Below are positions 2,951 to 27,187 of a stretch of DNA of 36,792 nt, piece by piece. Under the pieces are notes generated by a model. The model did not search any database. It had not been told where the DNA came from and worked only from the letters and a program-made list of their open reading frames with translations. The first letter of the stretch is position 1, and each line of letters starts with the position of its first letter. The stretch spans positions 1-36,792 of the forward strand of contig JAAYTG010000067.1 of assembly GCA_012518075.1 (NCBI GenBank), written 5' to 3'. The position numbers and the translations under genes are program-made. The stretch is from Clostridiales bacterium. GTDB taxonomy: Bacteria > Bacillota > Clostridia > Caldicoprobacterales > UBA3941.

Positions 2951-5479
2951 ATGGCAATATTAGAAGCTATAAAACCTTCTATAGGCGACATAGATACAGT
3001 GACGGATATTCTTAGCAATGCTTTAGGTGTTTCCAGGGTTACCTCCAGGTTATTAATAAATCGAGGGATCCTTGATACAGAGGATGCCAGAGCCTTTTTA
3101 AATCCTTCTTTAGAACAATTATTTGACCCTTTCAAACTGACTGATATGGATAAAGCTGTGTCTAGAATCGAAAAAGCAATATCCTCTAAGGAACATATAA
3201 CCATCTATGGAGATTATGATGTGGATGGGATGACTAGTTGCGCCTTACTTTATAATTTCTTAACAGATAAGGGATGTAAGGTGGATGTATACATCCCCAA
3301 TCGACACAAGGAAGGTTATGGGATTAACTGTAAGGCAATTGAAGAGATTCATAGAAGGGGTACTCATTTGATGGTCAGTGTTGACTGTGGCATCACTTCT
3401 ATATCCCAGGTGGAGTTGGCTAAGGATTTAGGGATTGATGTCATTATTACAGATCATCATCAATGTAGTAGCACCCTTCCCGAAGCCATAGCTGTTATAA
3501 ACCCTGCTAGGAATCCAGAGCTTCATAGAATGCATCCTCTAGCTGGAGTTGGGGTAGCCGGTAAACTGGTACAGGCCATAGAAGGTGTGTCATACCTAGA
3601 GCCTTATTTGGATTTAATAGCATTGGGAACGGTAGCCGATGTTGTTTCTCTTGTTGGAGATAACAGGATACTGGTAGCAAAGGGTTTAGAGAAGATAAAC
3701 AAGTCTCCCTGTCCTGGTATTGAAGCCTTAATAGAGGTCTCTGCTAGCAAGGATTCAGAGATAGATACTGGGAGAATAGCTTTTGGATTAGCTCCCAGAC
3801 TAAATGCTGCAGGTAGAATCGATGATCCCCTTAAAGGCTTTGAACTGTTGACTGCTAGGAAGCTATCTCATGCTATTCCCATAGCAAAAAAGCTAGAGGA
3901 ACAAAACAGGCATAGGCAGGCAATAGAAGCGGAAATCATCCGAGAGGCTGAAGATTTAATTAGGGATTGTGTAAACCTAAGCACAGACAGGATAATAGTC
4001 TTAGGTAAAGAGGGATGGAATCCAGGAATAATAGGTATAGCTGCATCCAAGATTGCTGAGCGTTACTGTAGGCCCTGCATACTTATTTCCATTGAAGAGA
4101 AGATGGCCTCTGGATCGGCTAGGAGTATAAGTGGATTTAACATATACGAAGCCCTAAATTCTTCTTCCCATCTACTGGAAAAGTTTGGTGGCCATGAACA
4201 AGCTGCAGGATTTTCTTTAGTTAAAGAAAACATTCACCAATTGAGGAAGGTTCTCATAGATTACTCTAGCAAAAAAATCAGCGATTCTATGCTAATCCCT
4301 CGATACACCTATGATACGGATCTTAAACCTGGCGATATCACCCACAATTTAGTGAATGAGCTTAAAGCAATGGAACCCTTTGGCATAGGTAATCCATCTC
4401 CCACTTTTCTTTTATCCCATGCAAAGTTAGAGGAGAATCGTAAGGTGGGTAGCAATGGTAAGCATCTTAAGGTATCTGTTGGACTGGGACAGAGATTGTG
4501 GGATGGTATTGCCTTTGGAATGGGTGAACGGGCAGAAACTCTATCTGCCGCCAATCGAGTATCTTTAGTTACAAGATTAGAGAAAAATGAATGGAGAGGT
4601 ATAAGCAAACTACAATTGAATGTTAAACATATAGATGTAGCATTACAGAACAGCCAAGATTGGGAGGATTTTTTATCTTTCTTTCATTTAAAATTTTTTG
4701 ATGCTTTTTTCTATGATTTTATGTATAATAAGCATAATAACCCTGAAGCCTATTCTATTTTACCGGGACTCATGAAACCGGTAAGTATGAATGATGTTAT
4801 CGAGGAATTTAAAAGAACTGGAATTGGCAATCTGGTCCTGGTAAACTCTTTATTTAATAGCCAGAGACTTGCCCAATGTGTATTGGATAATAATTTAAGT
4901 AAAAAGATGATATCCAGCTATGGTCAACCCAACCATTGGGATGGTATTGGTGTGAATATGGTAGTCTTTGCTCCCATATCTAGCAATATAGCTTTCTCAG
5001 ACTACAGGAACATCTATGTCTTTGAAGATGAAATATCCTACTCTTTTATAGATTTTAATCAGATAGGCAATGCCAAGCTCCATAGAATCATAAGCAGGGA
5101 AGAAAGAACAAGGGGGAATAAGGAGTTAAAGGGAAAATACCTAGTTCAACATTCAGATTTTGCTTCCCTTTATAGGTGGCTTCGGTCTCTAACACCTGGA
5201 CGCAGTATCTGGCAGGGTTGGCAAAGCTTAGTTGAAGACTATCAAAGCAAAATGAGTCAGGCTATTAATGGATTTACCATTAGGCTTATGCTAAGGATAT
5301 TTGAAGAGCTCAACTTTATTAAGGTTCAATCTAGTTATAGATTTGTTAGAATCCAGTGCCCTGCCAATCCCTTACATCGTGATCTGGAGGAGAGCTCTTT
5401 ATATAGATATTATAAAAAATGGGTTAATGATATAAAAAACAAAACTAGTTTGGATAAATTTAAGGAGGAAATTTTATGA
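2951..5479 (+). CDS. recJ: Single-stranded-DNA-specific 5'-3' exonuclease RecJ
   Basis: DHH-family nuclease acting in RecF-pathway recombination, base-excision and mismatch repair. The 842-residue product shows motif DYDVDG (88-93), VDCG (144-147), the DHH metal motif (168-170), and the DHHA1 glycine-rich motif [11 protein letters not shown] near residue 415. An OB-like region follows, then a long C-terminal extension from about residue 560 typical of Firmicute RecJ proteins and absent from E. coli RecJ. I chose ATG 2951 (SD AAAGGTGA); an in-frame GTG at 2942 lies within that SD. The stop overlaps the apt start by four bases (ATGA), so recJ and apt are translationally coupled. Confidence 0.97.
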
Positions 5480-5994
5480 ATCTTGCTGACAAAATTAGAA
5501 TAATACCTGACTTCCCCAAAGAAGGAATTAGCTTCAAGGATATAACCACTCTCTTACAGGATAAAGATGCCTATCAACATACTGTTAATACCCTGATTGA
5601 AACATGTAAAGAGCTACGGCCTGATTTTATAGTCGGACCTGAAGCCAGAGGTTTCGTTATTGGAGCACCTCTAGCCTATGGTTTAGGAGTAGGCTTTGTT
5701 CCTGTTCGAAAGCCTGGAAAATTACCCTGTGATACTGTCTTATATGAATACGACTTGGAATATGGTAAGGATGTCCTGGAGATCCATCAAGATGCAATAA
5801 AGCCAGGTCAAAGGGTGGTAATAGCTGATGATTTATTGGCAACTGGTGGAACAGCCCTAGCTACAGCAAAACTTGTAGAAAAGCTAGGCGGTATCGTTGT
5901 AGGGATGTTGTTTGTAATTGAGCTTTCCTATCTAAATGGAAAAGAAAAGCTGAGTGAATATAGGGTAGAAACTTTAGTCGAGTATGAGTCCTAA
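5476..5994 (+). CDS. apt: Adenine phosphoribosyltransferase
   Basis: Salvages adenine to AMP using PRPP; cytosolic. The 172-residue length is standard. The N-terminus reads as in bacterial APTs ([15 protein letters not shown]), and the PRPP-binding motif [14 protein letters not shown] lies near residues 115-128. The SD is AAGGAGG inside the recJ 3' end. recJ-apt-rel is a conserved Firmicute arrangement linking purine salvage with (p)ppGpp metabolism. A short GAGTC/GACTC repeat follows the stop but lacks a T tract; rel is probably cotranscribed. Confidence 0.97.
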
Positions 5995-6043
5995 TTAATG
6001 GCGACTCAGGTTTTATAAAACACTATAAAAGGGCGTATAGGAA

Positions 6044-8221
6044 ATGGCAGAGTTCGATAAAAAATTAAATATGCTAGAAGAAAAAGCACAGCAGCTATAT
6101 GGGGATCAGGGTGTAACAAAGATTAAAGATGCTTACGCCTTTGCTCGTGATGCTCATAAATCCCAGTTAAGATCTTCAGGAGACCCTTATATAATCCATC
6201 CTTTGGAGGTAGCGCTGATACTTATCGATATGGGTTTGGATGTAGATACCATAGTTGCTGGGCTACTTCATGATGTAGTTGAGGATACAGGGGTTCCTAT
6301 TGAGGAACTATCCATGCTTTTTGGAGAGGAAATAGCACGGCTAGTTGACGGCGTAACCAAACTAGGGAAGATAGCTTTTAAGACCAAGGAAGAGCAGCAG
6401 GCTGAAAACTTACGCAAGATGTTTTTGGCCATGGCCAAGGATATAAGGGTAATTATAATAAAGCTGGCTGATCGTCTGCATAATCTTAGAACCCTAGAAT
6501 ACGTTGACGAAGAAAAGCAAAGAGAAAAAGCCTATGAAACTCTGGAAATCTATGCCCCACTAGCCCATAGGTTAGGTATTTTCAAGATCAAATGGGAGCT
6601 GGAAGATACATCTCTTAGATACATAGATCCTAAAGGTTATTATGATTTAGTGGATAGGATTGCCACAAAGCGCAAGGAAAGAGAAGAATACATCCAAGGT
6701 GTTATAAAGACCATTGAGGATAAATTAGATGAAATGGGAATTGAAGCAGAAATCGAGGGACGGCCAAAGCATTTCTATAGCATCTACAAAAAAATGTATA
6801 TGCAGCACAAGGACTTTGAGCAGATATACGATCTCTTAGCGGTAAGGATAATTGTCAATACAGTAAAGGATTGCTATGGAGTATTAGGAGTAGCTCACAC
6901 TCTATGGAAGCCGATCCCTGGAAGATTTAAGGATTATATTGCGGTGCCAAAGCCCAATATGTATCAATCCCTTCACACTACTGTTATTGGGCCTAGGGGT
7001 GAGTTGTTCGAAATCCAGATTAGAACTTGGGAGATGCATCGTACCGCCGAATATGGAATTGCTGCTCATTGGAAGTACAAAGAAGGTAAAAAGAGTTCAT
7101 CGGACTTTGATGAGAAACTGGCTTGGCTGAGACATCTATTGGAATGGCAGAGTGATTTAAAAGATGCAAGAGAGTTTATGGAAACTCTTAAAATTGATCT
7201 TTTCACCGATGAGGTGTTTGTCTTTACCCCAAAAGGAGATGTTATAGATCTACGTAAAGGGGCCACTCCTCTAGATTTTGCCTATGCCATCCATAGCGCT
7301 GTCGGAAACAAGTGTACCGGCGCCAAGGTTAATGGAAGAATAGTATCCTTAGACTATAAGCTCCAGACTGGCGATATAGTGGAAATCCTCACAGCAGCCT
7401 CCAGTAGCGGGCCTAGTCGGGACTGGCTAAATATAGTTAAGACTAGTCAAGCCAGGAATAAGATAAAACAATTCTTTAAAAAGGAGCGTAGGGAGGAAAA
7501 TATAGAAAAGGGCAAGGAGATGTTGGAGAGGGAAGCTAGAAGGCAGGGATACTCCCTTTCTCAGCTTCTTCAAAAAGACTGGTCGGAGTCAGCATGGAAA
7601 AAGTATGGTTTTCATTCTGCTGAGGATATGTACTCGGCCTTGGGCTATGGAGGCATTACCACAAACCAGATCTTATTCAGGCTTATTGATGAATATAAGA
7701 AGGCCAATCAACCAGACGTAGAAGATTTGGCTTCAAAAGGAGAAGTTAGACCCCGAAGGGCTTCAACTTCCAATGATAAAGGCGTTAAGGTAAAAGGTAT
7801 TGACAATATTATGGTTCGGTTTTCAAAATGTTGTAATCCAGTTCCGGGGGACGACATTATTGGCTATATAACCAGAGGTAGGGGCGTATCCATTCACAGG
7901 GCTGACTGTATAAATCTTCAAGATCCTTTGGTGGAAAAACATAGGTTTATCGAAGTCAATTGGGTGGATGAGCATAAGGCTTCATTTAGTTCGGAAATAC
8001 AGATACTAGCTAGGGATAGGGAAATGCTCCTGGCGGACATTACCAAGACAATATCAGATATGAAAATAACGGTTACAGCTATTAACGCCCGGACCACTAA
8101 AAACAAACAGGTAATAATAAATATTATGATGGAGATAAATGATATAGACCAACTAAAGAAGGTCATTAAACAATTTGAAAAAATAGATAAAGTAGTTGAT
8201 GTCTTTAGGGTAAAGGCATAA
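6044..8221 (+). CDS. relA: Bifunctional (p)ppGpp synthetase/hydrolase Rel
   Basis: Makes and degrades (p)ppGpp, the stringent-response alarmone; ribosome-associated. The 725-residue protein has all long-RSH domains in order: an HD hydrolase domain with intact HDVVEDT near residue 75, a synthetase domain about 230-345 ([30 protein letters not shown]), a TGS domain from about 388, a zinc-finger-like segment ([11 protein letters not shown], near 600) and a C-terminal ACT domain (about 650-725). Because the hydrolase motif is intact it is the bifunctional Rel type, not the hydrolase-dead RelA of gamma-proteobacteria. Start ATG 6044 has a modest SD (AAAGGG plus AGGA). dtd follows within 28 bases. 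Confidence 0.97.
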
Positions 8222-17046: not shown

Positions 17047-17292
17047 AACAATAAAGACATTTATATAACTGAACATATATGCAACCATTTTGTAGATTTA
17101 ATTATAATTGTAAATAGAGAATACTATAGTCAGGTTGATATTCTCAATGAATAAGAGTAGAAATATATGCAATAAAATTTTGGAGATCTAGTAAGGGGAA
17201 GGGATGTCTTAAGGTAAATACCTTCATATCTATTATATTTTGTCAACTATCAAGAATGTGTTAACATCTTATACATATAGAATAGTTTAAGA
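17047..17292 (+). other. AT-rich intergenic region between alkD-like gene and rarA
   Basis: No coding capacity seen. It contains an inverted repeat GAGAATA/TATTCTC (17117-17123 and 17139-17145, 15-base loop) without a T tract, and a small palindrome AAGGTA-AA-TACCTT near 17212. A -35-like TTGTCA near 17240 has no convincing -10 at the right distance. The promoter of rarA is presumably here but I cannot place it. Confidence 0.5.
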
Positions 17293-17295
17293 AGA

Positions 17296-17357
17296 AAGGT
17301 GGTGAGCTTTAGTGAGAGTTCGGTATTTGCAGCACACTCTCTCACTAAAGATAAGAG
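17296..17357 (+). promoter_or_regulatory. Shine-Dalgarno plus perfect 12-bp inverted repeat before the rarA ATG
   Basis: AAGGTGGTGA (17296-17305) matches the full SD consensus at 9 of 10 bases but lies 52 bases before the rarA ATG. Between them CTTTAGTGAGAG (17307-17318) and CTCTCACTAAAG (17339-17350) form a perfect 12-bp stem with a 20-base loop. With the stem folded, only 1 + 7 unpaired bases separate SD and ATG: ideal spacing. Alternatively the SD serves GTG 17312, 6 bases away, which opens a 32-codon frame ending at 17410 inside rarA, out of frame. The rarA ATG itself has only a poor SD (AAGA). Confidence 0.6.
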
Positions 17358-18665
17358 ATGATAGAGACTATGCCTTTGGCAGCCCGTATGAGACCGGAAA
17401 CATTGGATGAGTTTATTGGACAGAAACATATTGTAGGCAGAGGGAAGCTACTCTATAGGGCCATAAAGGCTGATAGGCTTACCTCGGCTATATTCTACGG
17501 GCCACCGGGTACCGGCAAAACCACCCTTGCCAAAATAATAGCTGGAGAGACCCAGTACTCTTTCAAACAGCTAAATGCGGTATCAGCTGGAGTAAAGGAA
17601 ATAAGAAAAATAGCTGATGAGGCTCAAAACTATCTTCTTAATCCAAAAGGAAGGGTTATTTTATTCTTTGATGAAATTCATAGGTTAAATAAAGGTCAGC
17701 AGGATGCGCTCCTACCCTTCGTAGAAAATGGGACATTTATACTTGTAGGTGCCACCACCGAGAACCCCTATTTTGAGGTGAATAAGGCCCTATTATCCAG
17801 GTCCACTATCTTTAAATTCGAACCTTTAAGAGATGAAGATTTGAAGGCACTCATATACATCTGTATTAATGATAAGGAAAAGGGTTTGGGGAATCAAAAG
17901 ATTGAGATTAAATCTGAAGCCGTGGATCATATTATTCGCATGAGTGAAGGGGATGCTAGGGCAGTACTAAATGCTTTAGAATTAGCTGCCTTGACTACTC
18001 CTGCTAGTGAAGATGGGACAATAGTTATTAACCTTGATGTGGCTCAAGAATGTGTACAGCAAAAGGCTATAAGATACGATAAGGACGGTGATAATCATTA
18101 TGATGTCACAAGTGCCTTTATAAAGAGTATGAGAAACTATATGGAACCTGATGCTGTATTACACTGGCTAGCCCGCTTGATTGAAAGTGGAGAGAAACCA
18201 GAGTTTATTGCTAGAAGGATTATGATAGCTGCTGCTGAGGATGTAGGCCTAGCCAATCCAGCTGCTCTTCAACTTGCAGTGGCTGCATCTCAAGCCGTTG
18301 AGCGTGTAGGATGGCCGGAGAGCAGGATTATATTGGCCCAAGCAGCTTTAATGGTGGCTTGTTCACCAAAATCCAATGCTGTTTGTGTGGGAATTGATAA
18401 GGCCATAGAAGATGTACGAAATAAAAAGATAGGGGAGGTACCTATAAACCTAAGAGATACCCATTATCCCGGATCAGCTGAGCTAGGCCATGGAAGGGGA
18501 TATAAATACTCCCATGACTATCCCATGGCTAGGGCAGTGCAGCAGTATATGCCAGATGAACTCAGAGGTGTACGATATTATTTTCCAAAAAACTCCGGTA
18601 CAGAAGCTAGGATAAAGAAGGGATTAGAACAAATACTAGAGAAAAAAGATAGAAAAAATACTTAA
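17358..18665 (+). CDS. rarA: Replication-associated recombination ATPase RarA (MgsA)
   Basis: AAA+ ATPase that acts at stalled replication forks, related to clamp loaders. 435 residues with Walker A GPPGTGKTT (about 48-56), Walker B FFDEIHRL, sensor 1 GATTENP, and the RarA C-terminal region (GEKPEFIARRIMIAAAEDVGLANP) used for tetramerisation. An in-frame TAA at 17352 forces the start to be ATG 17358 or a later codon. The N-terminus PLAARMRPETLDEFIGQ is typical. Translation initiation is unusual because the strong SD is beyond a hairpin. Its neighbour downstream is the Fe-S operon, reached across a regulatory palindrome. Confidence 0.95.
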   Translation: MIETMPLAARMRPETLDEFIGQKHIVGRGKLLYRAIKADRLTSAIFYGPPGTGKTTLAKIIAGETQYSFKQLNAVSAGVKEIRKIADEAQNYLLNPKGRVILFFDEIHRLNKGQQDALLPFVENGTFILVGATTENPYFEVNKALLSRSTIFKFEPLRDEDLKALIYICINDKEKGLGNQKIEIKSEAVDHIIRMSEGDARAVLNALELAALTTPASEDGTIVINLDVAQECVQQKAIRYDKDGDNHYDVTSAFIKSMRNYMEPDAVLHWLARLIESGEKPEFIARRIMIAAAEDVGLANPAALQLAVAASQAVERVGWPESRIILAQAALMVACSPKSNAVCVGIDKAIEDVRNKKIGEVPINLRDTHYPGSAELGHGRGYKYSHDYPMARAVQQYMPDELRGVRYYFPKNSGTEARIKKGLEQILEKKDRKNT

Positions 18666-24266: not shown

Positions 24267-24290
24267 AGACACTAGTATATTGCAAATGCA

Positions 24291-24514
24291 GTGATGGGAA
24301 GTAGTAAATCAAACCCAGTTCCTTAGCGAGAAGGGGAAGGTGCAAGCCCTTCGGATATGGTTGGTTGAAGCCGTCCCGGAGCACTACAGCTAAATAGATA
24401 GGCTGTAGCGGTGTAAGCCGTTAGATTAAACCGAGTGATCGAATACTAGTTCGATAACAAGGGTGGTACCGCGTAAATTTACGTCCCTTTTAGCATAAGG
24501 GACGTTTTTATTTT
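24291..24514 (+). promoter_or_regulatory. T-box riboswitch, alanine specific, controlling alaS
   Basis: Stem I opens with GTGATGGGAAGTAGTAA and closes with TCCCGGAGCAC; the specifier loop reads GAAGCCG, giving specifier codon GCC (24370-24372), alanine. The apical part contains AGCGAGAAGG and GGTGCAAGCC, the tRNA-elbow-contacting elements. The conserved T-box AAGGGTGGTACCGCG is at 24459-24473. The terminator follows: ACGTCCCTT (24481-24489) with AAGGGACGT (24497-24505) and a T run to about 24514. Uncharged tRNA-Ala would pair with the T-box bulge and favour the antiterminator. The gene that follows is alaS, which confirms the specifier. Confidence 0.97.
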
Positions 24515-24544: not shown

Positions 24545-27187
24545 ATGGAAAAATTGGGATTAAACCAAATAAGAGATAGTTTTTTAAAGTTTTTTGAAGG
24601 CAAGGGACATTTGCTCCTTCCAAGCTCTTCATTGGTGCCTCAATCCGACAAAAGCCTATTGTTAATAAATTCTGGTATGGCTCCACTAAAAGCTTATTTC
24701 ACGGGGCAGGAAACCCCTCCGAGCCCAAGAGTTACTACATGTCAAAAATGCATCCGAACTCCGGATATTGATATAGTGGGTAAGACGGCTAGACACGGAA
24801 CTTTCTTTGAAATGCTGGGTAATTTCTCGTTTGGGGACTATTTTAAGACGGAAGCCATTACCTGGGCATGGGAATATGTGACTGAGGTGCTAAAACTTCC
24901 ATTAGAAAAGCTGTGGATAACCATCTATCAGGATGACGATGAAGCTTTTGAAATATGGACAAAGGATATAGGGATAGATCCTGATAGGGTTGTACGCATG
25001 GGCAAAGAGGATAATTTTTGGGAGATTGGTGTAGGTCCTTGTGGACCCAGTTCCGAGATATTTTTTGACTGGGGAGAAGGCCATGGCTGCGGTCAAGAGA
25101 CCTGTGCTATAGGATGTGATTGCGATAGATTTGTAGAGTTTTGGAACCTAGTATTCACCCAATTTAACAAAGATGAAGATGGTAACTACCATCCTTTAGA
25201 ACACCCTAGCATAGATACTGGTATGGGTCTTGAAAGAATTGCCGCTATTATGCAGGGAGTACACTCTTTGTTCGAGGTGGATACTATAAAGAATATTATG
25301 GAAGAGGTTAGCCGTATCTCTGGGGTTAAATATGGAGAAAAGGAAAGTAGCGACATTTCCCTTCGTGTTGTCACTGATCATATTAGAGGGACGGTATTCA
25401 TGATCTCTGATGGTATTCTGCCTTCCAATGAAGGAAGAGGCTACGTGCTTAGGAGAATCCTCAGAAGGGCTGCTCGACATGGTAAGTTACTCGGTATTGA
25501 GGATATGTTTTTGTCTGGTCTGGCCCAGGTTGTTATTAGAGAATCAGGAGAGGCTTATCCTGAACTCAAAGATAAAAAGGAGTATATCTTAAAAGTTGTT
25601 CAAATAGAAGAAGAGAGATTTAATGAGACTATAGATCAAGGCCTGTCCATACTTAAAGACTATATAGAGCACATAAAGGAAGAAAACGAACAGAAATTAG
25701 ACGGACAAAGGGCATTCAAGCTTTATGATACCTATGGATTTCCATTAGATCTAACCAAAGAAATTTTGGAAGAAGAGGGATTGAGCCTTGATGAGGAAGA
25801 ATTCAATCAGTACATGAAGGAACAACGGGAACGAGCCAGGGCAGCAAGACATGATACCGACTATATGGGAGGGGATGACCCTATCTATAACCTGTTAGAT
25901 TCCAAGGATACCACCGAGTTTAAGGGTTATGACTTTCTTGATATAGAGAGTCAAATCACAAATATTATAAAGGATAACCAACAGGTTCAATCTACTGGAC
26001 CAGGTGGTGAGGTCTTGATAGTCTTAGATCAAACTCCCTTCTATGCTGAAGGCGGGGGACAGGTAGGAGACAAGGGTATACTGGAAAACCAAAAGGCCAA
26101 GGTGGAGATTGTGGACGTGTACAAGGTATATGACAGCCATATTCTTCATAAAGGTAAGATTATATCGGGGCATATAAATATTAACGACAAGGTACAGGCC
26201 AAGGTTGATAGGGAGAAGAGGCTGGCAACAGCACGAAATCACTCTACCACCCACCTACTCCATAAGGCTTTGCGAAAGGTCTTAGGAGGGCATGTAGAGC
26301 AGGCTGGTTCACTAGTGACCCCATCCAGACTTCGCTTTGATTTCTCTCATTTTGCTCCATTAACAGCAGAGGAAATCGAGAGAATTGAAGAAATAGTCAA
26401 TCAAAAGATTATGGAAAGCATGGAAATAGAGACATTAGAGACCAGCTATGATGAAGCTAAGAACTTAGGAGCTCTGGCTCTATTTGGGGAGAAATATGGT
26501 GATAAAGTAAGAGTTGTAAAGATGGGGGATTTCAGTATTGAACTTTGTGGAGGTACCCATCTAACCAATACGGGACAAGCCGGACTATTTAAGATAATAA
26601 ATGAGACCGGGATAGCCGCTGGCGTTCGAAGGATTGAGGCCGTTACTGGATCAGGAGCTCGCCAGTGGATAAAGGATTTAAATGAACTGGTGGATAATGC
26701 TGCAAATACCCTTAAAACAAATCCCAATGATCTTGTCCAAAAAGCTGAAGGTCTAGTGCAGCAGGTAAAGGAATATGAACAGGAAATTCAACAGCTAAAG
26801 AGACAACTAGCTCAAGGCAATATTGACTCACTGCTGGCCAACAAGGAAAGCGTAGGGGATATATCCTTTGTTACTGCTCGATTAGATCACCAGGACATGG
26901 TCAGTCTACGGGAAATAGCTGACACTTTAAGGGATAGATTAAAATCAGGGGTAGTAGTTTTGGCTTCTGAGCACCAAGAAAAGGTGAATCTTGTGGCCGC
27001 TGCTACCAAGGATGTGGTGGACAAGGGAGCTCACTGTGGTAATCTTATTAGAGAAGTAGCCAAGGTTACAGGTGGTGGCGGTGGTGGACGTCCCAATATG
27101 GCTCAGGCAGGTGGGAAGGATCCATCTAAGATCTCACAAGCCTTGGACAAAGTTAAGGTTTTACTTGAACAACAACTGGGTATCTAG
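24545..27187 (+). CDS. alaS: Alanyl-tRNA synthetase
   Basis: Class II synthetase charging tRNA-Ala, with an editing domain that removes Ser and Gly. 880 residues, normal length. Catalytic core at the N-terminus (RDSFLKFFEGKGHLLLPSSSLVP; GMGLERIAAIMQG), editing-site metal ligands HSTTH (about 565) and CGGTH (about 668), and a C-terminal C-Ala domain with the glycine-rich GGGGGGRPNMAQAGG typical of AlaRS. SD GGAGGAAT precedes ATG 24545. Expression is controlled by the T-box upstream. A small inverted repeat (CTTGTG/CACAAG at 27229-27246) follows but lacks a T tract. Confidence 0.98.
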   Translation: MEKLGLNQIRDSFLKFFEGKGHLLLPSSSLVPQSDKSLLLINSGMAPLKAYFTGQETPPSPRVTTCQKCIRTPDIDIVGKTARHGTFFEMLGNFSFGDYFKTEAITWAWEYVTEVLKLPLEKLWITIYQDDDEAFEIWTKDIGIDPDRVVRMGKEDNFWEIGVGPCGPSSEIFFDWGEGHGCGQETCAIGCDCDRFVEFWNLVFTQFNKDEDGNYHPLEHPSIDTGMGLERIAAIMQGVHSLFEVDTIKNIMEEVSRISGVKYGEKESSDISLRVVTDHIRGTVFMISDGILPSNEGRGYVLRRILRRAARHGKLLGIEDMFLSGLAQVVIRESGEAYPELKDKKEYILKVVQIEEERFNETIDQGLSILKDYIEHIKEENEQKLDGQRAFKLYDTYGFPLDLTKEILEEEGLSLDEEEFNQYMKEQRERARAARHDTDYMGGDDPIYNLLDSKDTTEFKGYDFLDIESQITNIIKDNQQVQSTGPGGEVLIVLDQTPFYAEGGGQVGDKGILENQKAKVEIVDVYKVYDSHILHKGKIISGHININDKVQAKVDREKRLATARNHSTTHLLHKALRKVLGGHVEQAGSLVTPSRLRFDFSHFAPLTAEEIERIEEIVNQKIMESMEIETLETSYDEAKNLGALALFGEKYGDKVRVVKMGDFSIELCGGTHLTNTGQAGLFKIINETGIAAGVRRIEAVTGSGARQWIKDLNELVDNAANTLKTNPNDLVQKAEGLVQQVKEYEQEIQQLKRQLAQGNIDSLLANKESVGDISFVTARLDHQDMVSLREIADTLRDRLKSGVVVLASEHQEKVNLVAAATKDVVDKGAHCGNLIREVAKVTGGGGGGRPNMAQAGGKDPSKISQALDKVKVLLEQQLGI

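Follow-up and report, generated by a model that had tools for sequence, protein, structure and literature searches.

A putative hairpin-bridged ribosome binding site before a clostridial rarA and its dispersed family of leaders, with a likely origin in a transposon end

The window, by which we mean the whole stretch of 36,792 nucleotides analysed here, comes from a Clostridiales bacterium and carries a gene for a MgsA/RarA-type AAA+ ATPase, rarA, preceded by a compact leader whose elements are collected in Table 1. A DNA alkylation repair gene (PF08713, 16375-17046) lies between glyA and rarA in the window, whereas in several relatives (e.g. L016, L018 and L020) the end of glyA is found just 5' of rarA, so the repair gene may have been acquired together with the leader module or next to it. 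Further downstream in the window a T-box leader (RF00230, 137 bits, 24282-24491) precedes a frame at 24545 that, by eye, is alaS.

Table 1. Elements of the rarA leader and the gene that follows it (positions in the window)
Feature	Position	Strand	Remark
Upstream block TTAACATCTTATACA	17261..17275	+	Part of the module; 14/15 to TTAACATGTTATACA; begins 32 nt 5' of the SD block
Extended Shine-Dalgarno AGAAAGGTGGTGA	17293..17305	+	Aligns with family AGAAAGGAGGTGA
Hairpin, 5' arm CTTTAGTGAGAG	17307..17318	+	Perfect complement of 17339-17350; covarying in the family
Hairpin loop, 20 nt	17319..17338	+	Total hairpin length varies widely in the family
Hairpin, 3' arm CTCTCACTAAAG	17339..17350	+	Complement of the 5' arm; covarying in the family
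TCACTAAAGATAA	17342..17354	+	Identical to the terminal inverted repeat at the right end of both transposons (L069, G324)
GAGATG	17355..17360	+	Presumed place, by comparison, of the 6-nt core (NNNATG) beside transposon ends
Leader ORF, 32 codons, GTG within the 5' arm	17312..17410	+	Exists; judged non-functional
rarA (MgsA/RarA AAA+ ATPase)	17358..18665	+	Start ATG 17358; PF12002, PF16193, PF00004

A first-pass annotation of this DNA had placed a Shine-Dalgarno (SD) sequence, AAGGTGGTGA (17296-17305), some 52 nt 5' of ATG 17358. Its coordinates are exact, and the match is longer than was claimed, with 13 nt (17293-17305) complementary to the 16S tail and a computed duplex energy of −17.8 kcal/mol. 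The ATG has no good SD of its own, as had been stated: just 5' of it the computed anti-SD energy is −1.5 kcal/mol. The TAA at 17352, in frame with rarA, is also present. Next to the SD stands G 17306, followed by the perfect 12-bp stem and its 20-nt loop, which can be read directly from the sequence, and ATAAGAG (17351-17357) separates the stem from the start codon. When the hairpin is folded, only 1 + 7 nt are left of the 52 nt between SD and ATG; measured from GGAGG, the folded spacing is 11-13 nt, which is above the usual. RNAfold forms the stem and leaves the SD unpaired, and the hairpin alone retains a calculated −7.5 kcal/mol at 60 °C, both of which speak against the temperature switch suggested in the annotation. 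Over its full 141 nt, the region is not more stable than its own shuffles (z 0.50). No other perfect 12-bp inverted repeat with a loop of 3-30 nt occurs in the window, and five order-1 Markov resamples have none. No Rfam family reached its gathering threshold in the window element or in 20 loci with copies of it, and permissive Rfam scans returned only weak matches, far under threshold. As for the upstream block, it may act as a promoter.

The annotation had counted missing conservation of the stem in close relatives as evidence against its idea, and at rarA such conservation is indeed missing: the hairpin is absent in 29 out of 29 relatives. Those genes have ordinary SDs, e.g. GGGGGATAACAAATG in L016 and GGAGGATAACAATG in L018, with best proximal anti-SD energies that average −10.2 kcal/mol (n = 29, the best start being taken in each), and the rarA start codon of L016-L019 is the homologue of ATG 17358. 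A second possible start in the window is ATG 17370, whose proximal SD is weak at −6.9 kcal/mol and thus close to that of the weakest relative, −7.0. These observations could be accommodated by a hairpin that arose by chance, rarA being translated from ATG 17370 or without any SD. Both the absence from the relatives and the unexceptional stability of the whole region would suit such an explanation. We consider it scarcely credible, given that the window leader resembles a whole family of leaders in its upstream block, SD, stem and spacer. Moreover, the first of these was reached by plain blastn before any model of the family existed, which is in itself evidence against a chance hairpin. With the 88-nt leader of the window as query, blastn gave one significant plasmid match, the leader of a gene on a Tepidibacter phage-plasmid (75% over 77 nt, E 4e-4), in which SD, stem, 7 nt and ATG follow in the same order as in the window. 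Hence phages or plasmids can carry the module. On the Tepidibacter phage-plasmid (L045 2573-3679) the module precedes a gene that resembles those for tail sheaths (PF04984 at E 1.8e-6, narrowly below the cut-off). Nothing further was found by blastn against phages; a second plasmid query recovered its own record only, beyond chance-level matches; and of two patterns run on viral_contigs one gave no loci and the other four, in which neither SD nor ATG was correctly placed.

A pattern for the stem alone found 52 loci in the genome collection. Although this pattern makes no selection for SD or ATG, an ATG lies exactly 8 nt past CTAAA in 20 of 82 oriented matches, the next best offset having 8, and SD-like pentamers are concentrated 4-5 nt 5' of the stem. 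A first covariance model, R1, was seeded with 22 sequences: 20 of the 52 loci, picked by eye because they showed an SD and an ATG, together with the copies of the plasmid and the window. A second, R2, was then built from 44 matches. Most copies of the family were found with these models; owing to the choice of seeds, the ATG position and the G·U excess described below are partly selected for. The window copy, being one of the R1 seeds, scores 80.6 bits with R1. Within the class, R1 at E 0.01 has matches in 12 out of 291 genomes, the window genome among them, although two of the 12 (G043 and G049) have weak matches only and no ORF. In genus g76, R2 has matches in 30 out of 68 genomes, with at most six copies each; this genus is taken as Clostridium since its copy L144 is identical to L093 of Clostridium weizhouense. 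At the phylum level R2 matches 3 of 299 genomes, including that of the window, and the two matches outside the class stand before frames of 410 and 347 aa, by eye hydF and SIR2-like. In the copy before the SIR2-like frame (L244, in G408) the stem is unlike the common one and still pairs. Within the order, the window genome holds the sole R2 match (6 family genomes, 30 order genomes), and R1 has one match in the window genome at E < 0.01. As far as genomes were searched, the hairpin would be missing at rarA of the relatives because the module arrived in the window lineage alone.

Two descriptors made no use of the sequence of the stem. The first was hardly above its control (18 of 4377 starts vs 46 of 17516). 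The second, run on 800 kb from three genomes, had four matches among 4537 ATGs and likewise four among 18156 control positions, recovering three of the seven R1 model matches in its stretches. Its fourth match, L231 (about position 1799), is probably a further copy that only the descriptor found, with a diverged stem on the same UUUAG/CUAAA foot.

The copy census was given 89 loci, eight fetched stretches that repeated other loci being excluded, and 108 non-redundant copies were kept once duplicates had been removed. An ATG stands at the end of the model in 102 of these, and a frame of at least 40 aa is opened in 101. Copies combining both features form the filtered set of 98; the ten dropped include L112, which has a different stem and no ORF, and L111, also with no ORF. 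Across the 98 copies the hairpin varies in length from 20 to 88 nt, while the distance from stem foot to ATG stays within 6-9 nt and is 8 nt in 81 of them. Their SDs agree on average with 10.9 positions of the 15-nt tail complement, compared with 7.8 for 167 other frames at the same loci, many of whose starts are merely the first ATG. A block like TTAACATGTTATACA (at least 11/15) precedes 32 of the 98 copies, and 23 have it at the same distance; among shuffles 95 of 1960 contain such a block. Twenty-two copies lie at most 60 nt past a same-strand frame of at least 100 codons. The genes downstream belong to 74 families by blastp clustering, and 96 of 101 proteins were aligned. Their Pfam assignments share no theme, the recurring members being short-chain dehydrogenases, metallo-beta-lactamase-fold proteins, CobW, ThiM, HemB and CbiC. 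The recurrence of the cofactor genes CobW, HemB, CbiC and ThiM, seen in L136, L116, L194, L200, L185, L189, L177, L181, L193, L195 and L199, may be due to chance. Two copies, L139 and L140, stand before broken or very short frames, perhaps decayed genes.

The family also bears on the leader ORF that the first-pass annotation offered as an alternative, in which the SD would drive translation from GTG 17312, repressing rarA or coupling to it. The hairpin would then be a by-product, or it would switch between the two. The ORF exists, at the usual distance from an SD of −17.8 kcal/mol, and its GTG is kept, as part of the stem, in 76 of the 98 copies. In a few copies (the window, L056, L092, L149 and L045) the leader peptides are similar, as is their DNA. 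A functional role did not stand up to comparison: the corresponding codon is not GTG in the other 22 copies (GTA in 16, ATG in two, others in four); among the 76 with GTG the leader has 1 to 32 codons in 74, its frame relative to the gene is spread 31/28/17, and its stop precedes the gene ATG in 50. What is kept is the pairing rather than the reading frame, and we regard a working leader ORF as highly improbable.

That pairing was measured on 88 distinct rows of the alignment with the helix of the model, because RNAfold, when given whole elements, often lets the SD pair weakly with the spacer. In these rows 92.1% of the cells are paired, falling to 45-56% when the partner is slid; double changes occur in 10 of the 12 stem pairs (81 cells); and none of 500 shuffles reaches any of five covariation measures. 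At pairs 2-11 there are 71 G·U cells versus 5 A·C, to which the G·U preference of the model contributes, and this excess is what RNA transcribed from this strand would show. Kinship among copies inflates such covariation tests, and for this reason groups of orthologues matter. Before CobW the arms differ from genome to genome, reading UUUAGUGAGAG/CUCUCACUAAA, UUUAGUAGGAU/AUCUUACUAAA or CUUUAAUGGG/CCCAUUAAGG. A protein search brought up two HemB leaders that R2 had missed (L251 and L254), and their diverged hairpins still fold. The claim that a hairpin bridges a split ribosome binding site had been tied to compensatory changes with constant spacing, and it is in the dispersed family, rather than in rarA of close relatives, that such changes are found.

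Orthologues with and without the hairpin provide a comparison of another kind. For HemB there were 59 matches, of which 30 were fetched as loci and 28 were readable. The four with the hairpin have a distal SD of about −15.6 kcal/mol and proximal anti-SD energies of only −1.3 to −5.6 kcal/mol, against a proximal mean of −9.4 (−7.4 to −13.2) for the 24 without it. For CobW, 25 loci were examined and 20 were readable; proximal energies are −1.5 to −5.5 kcal/mol in the four with the hairpin, which also have a distal SD, and −10.0 on average (−8.2 to −11.7) in the remaining 16. Judged by these sequences, hairpin and proximal SD are mutually exclusive in both groups. In a metallo-beta-lactamase-fold gene, L119 has an 8-bp stem and a 4-nt loop with unchanged flanks, and three orthologues have longer hairpins, which indicates that the apical part is dispensable.

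The origin of the module is suggested by contig L069 of Clostridium muellerianum (6194 nt), which overlaps the starts of contigs L064 and L090 by 127 nt each. Record titles give it a coverage of 265, compared with 127 and 131 for the overlapped contigs, and the overlaps together with the doubled coverage mean that L069 is a repeat probably present twice. It had been a candidate for a third module copy in this species and was rejected as such, being the repeat common to the other two. The repeat ends exactly at ...CTCTCACTAAAGATAA, after which two different genes follow, and it encodes a tandem array of three tyrosine recombinases (PF00589) along with a small gene of the DUF6262 type (PF19776). 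From the recombinases to the right end (4940-6085) there are two frames, perhaps cargo: one of 147 aa that matches nothing in Pfam, and one of 188 aa that contains a partial serine-recombinase domain (PF07508). A second such transposon is present in G324, the only one of 67 genomes of the genus with the third recombinase at E 1e-30; the two are 78% identical (L069 3-4744 vs L311 5026-9785), and their right ends share 53 nt at 91%. Both start with TTATCTTTAGTGA and end with TCACTAAAGATAA, that is, with 13-nt terminal repeats. The right end of the G324 transposon is module copy L164, and the upstream block is found in the right end of L069 and, less well, in that of G324.

The junctions of L069 are informative. 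The contigs on its left end in ...AAAGGTGTGATTAACAG/ATG and ...AGAGGTGCAATTAATAT/ATG, so that the left flanks finish with a ribosome binding site, and the genes on its right begin CAG/ATG and TAT/ATG. All four junctions thus hold a 6-nt core NNNATG, CAGATG and TATATG each occurring on both sides. We would pair left with right flanks in C. muellerianum by their equal cores; joined in this way they yield genes of the ordinary kind, whose proximal SDs reach −11.1 and −9.7 kcal/mol. The G324 insertion has cores AGTACG and TTGACG and no gene start at the junction, and its SD is degenerate. The start codon therefore appears as the landing site in two of three insertions, and there the ribosome binding site would be restored. 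Comparison of the ends and junctions indicates that the hairpin is made of the terminal repeat of the transposon plus an inverted copy of it.

Most copies look different from these complete elements. Upstream of the 108 copies (mostly within 0.5-1.5 kb) we found no left terminal repeat that has a junction of this kind, nor in 19 longer stretches except the one holding the G324 transposon, nor within 2.5 kb upstream in the window. Recombinase homologues are likewise missing from the upstream stretches except in the G324 transposon, and from glyA to the module the window has the DNA alkylation repair gene only and no recombinase genes. The window copy hence looks like the solo right end of a transposon, and we infer the same descent for the other solo copies because end, hairpin and upstream block are identical. 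The order of events may also have been the reverse, with a transposon capturing a pre-existing module as its own end.

A transposon end brings with it the question of whether the inverted repeat acts in DNA only, as a recombinase site or an operator, its place in leaders being incidental and the genes being translated otherwise. The 3' arm and its tail are a transposon terminal repeat, so the repeat had a role in DNA, and insertion alone could fix the distance to the ATG: if NNNATG always comes to stand next to the end, the uniform spacing would be partly built in and would not reflect selection for bridging alone. The case for bridging would then rest on the covariation of solo copies, on a distal SD that stays strong where a proximal one is lacking, and on hairpins that are shorter in some copies although their flanks are the same. 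These same features make a role in DNA alone very doubtful, as solo copies without recombinase genes nearby keep a covarying pairing with G·U and hardly any A·C, hairpin length varies widely, and a distal SD is kept where there is no proximal one.

Regulation could also be layered on the split site, with a protein, small RNA, ligand or temperature opening or binding the hairpin and so switching the gene. An open hairpin would leave SD and ATG about 50 nt apart; the stem foot (UUUAGU/ACUAAA) is far less variable than the upper stem; and the loops share residues across many copies. However, the module serves 74 gene families of no common function with hairpins anywhere between 20 and 88 nt, it is by calculation stable at 60 °C, and the conserved foot has another explanation in the terminal repeat of the transposon, besides being partly imposed by the search models. 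We thus judge general regulation of this kind unlikely, if less so than the other alternatives.

Taking into account: (i) the anatomy of the leader; (ii) the covariation of its stem; (iii) the reciprocity of hairpin and proximal SD, and (iv) the transposon ends lying at two start codons, all of them features of the sequences themselves, we conclude that the segment before rarA is very probably a hairpin-bridged, or split, ribosome binding site, a member of a dispersed family that occurs mainly in Clostridium-type genomes and whose most likely ancestor is a tyrosine-recombinase transposon, of which it would represent the right end. In the proposed mechanism, the 30S subunit would bind the unusually strong SD while the hairpin directly 3' of it remains folded, and ATG 17358, 7 nt past the stem foot, would enter the P site as though 44 nt were missing. 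That the ribosome accommodates the folded hairpin we infer by analogy with the systems discussed below. As to its history, a transposon would insert at a start codon, cutting off the old SD on its left side; the transposon end would bring along an upstream block and a new SD, as well as the hairpin formed by the terminal inverted repeat and its inverted copy; and the window would keep only the right end. We lean, with some reserve, towards a further step in which a transposon that targets start codons mends its target, the hairpin of the right repeat joining the SD of the transposon to the ATG of the gene, and solo ends that remain once the transposon is lost become locked in, as loss of the stem would separate SD from start codon. 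Such lock-in, if true, explains the roughly one hundred solo copies, including that of rarA in the window.

These hundred or so natural copies constitute comparative data on which inserts between SD and start codon are tolerated by the 30S subunit. They also define a class of starts that appear SD-less to gene finders and to calculators of ribosome binding sites. If the transposon link is true, a mobile element has turned its terminal repeat into the translation signal of its target, and could spread through genes without silencing them, the structure being kept since its loss is impossible. The presence or absence of the hairpin in orthologues makes the different readings testable.

To our knowledge, hairpin-bridged ribosome binding sites have been known as single cases, T4 genes 25 and 38 and E. 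coli thrS. The thrS leader is an autoregulated operator. The available text of a review (PMC3014915) bears out the first-pass annotation in citing the two T4 genes as users of bridging hairpins: in gene 38 the hairpin shortens the distance between SD and AUG from 22 to 5 nt, in gene 25 from 27 to 11 nt, and mutations that destabilise it lower initiation. The present module is like them, as far as they are described there, in that a hairpin shortens an over-long gap; unlike those single phage genes, it is homologous before 74 gene families, its SD is longer, the foot of its stem is conserved, and it is likely to derive from a transposon end. The thrS leader, according to the accessible part of PMC3936740, has a ribosome binding site split around a hairpin domain, a comparable mechanism; it is one leader, and in the module the SD itself lies 5' of the hairpin. 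Most likely the module works in the way that experiments have established for T4 genes 25 and 38 (PMC3014915) and that has been concluded for thrS (PMC3936740), a likeness of mechanism for which we claim no shared descent. The leaders in Rfam, such as riboswitches, T-boxes and RNA thermometers, are likewise covarying RNAs of 5' leaders, from which the module differs in having its SD outside the stem and in lacking any Rfam match.

No description of the module or of a transposon of start codons was found in searches of the openly accessible literature, including the available portions of PMC11109978, PMC6429828 and PMC2864571, subscription papers lying beyond this scope. As for the transposon, the available descriptions of Tn554-related transposons, SEs, GInts and RIT elements (PMC3414803, PMC10214605) report several tyrosine recombinases, terminal repeats and a 6-bp footprint, and in those texts there is no mention of insertion at start codons or of a right end with SD and hairpin. 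In the gene content and ends that can be compared with these descriptions, L069 is like such elements, with its three tandem tyrosine recombinases, small fourth gene, 13-nt repeats and 6-nt cores. The hairpin-bridged ribosome binding site itself is thus already known from phage and bacterial genes; what appears to be new is a dispersed family of such sites, together with its likely source in a transposon.
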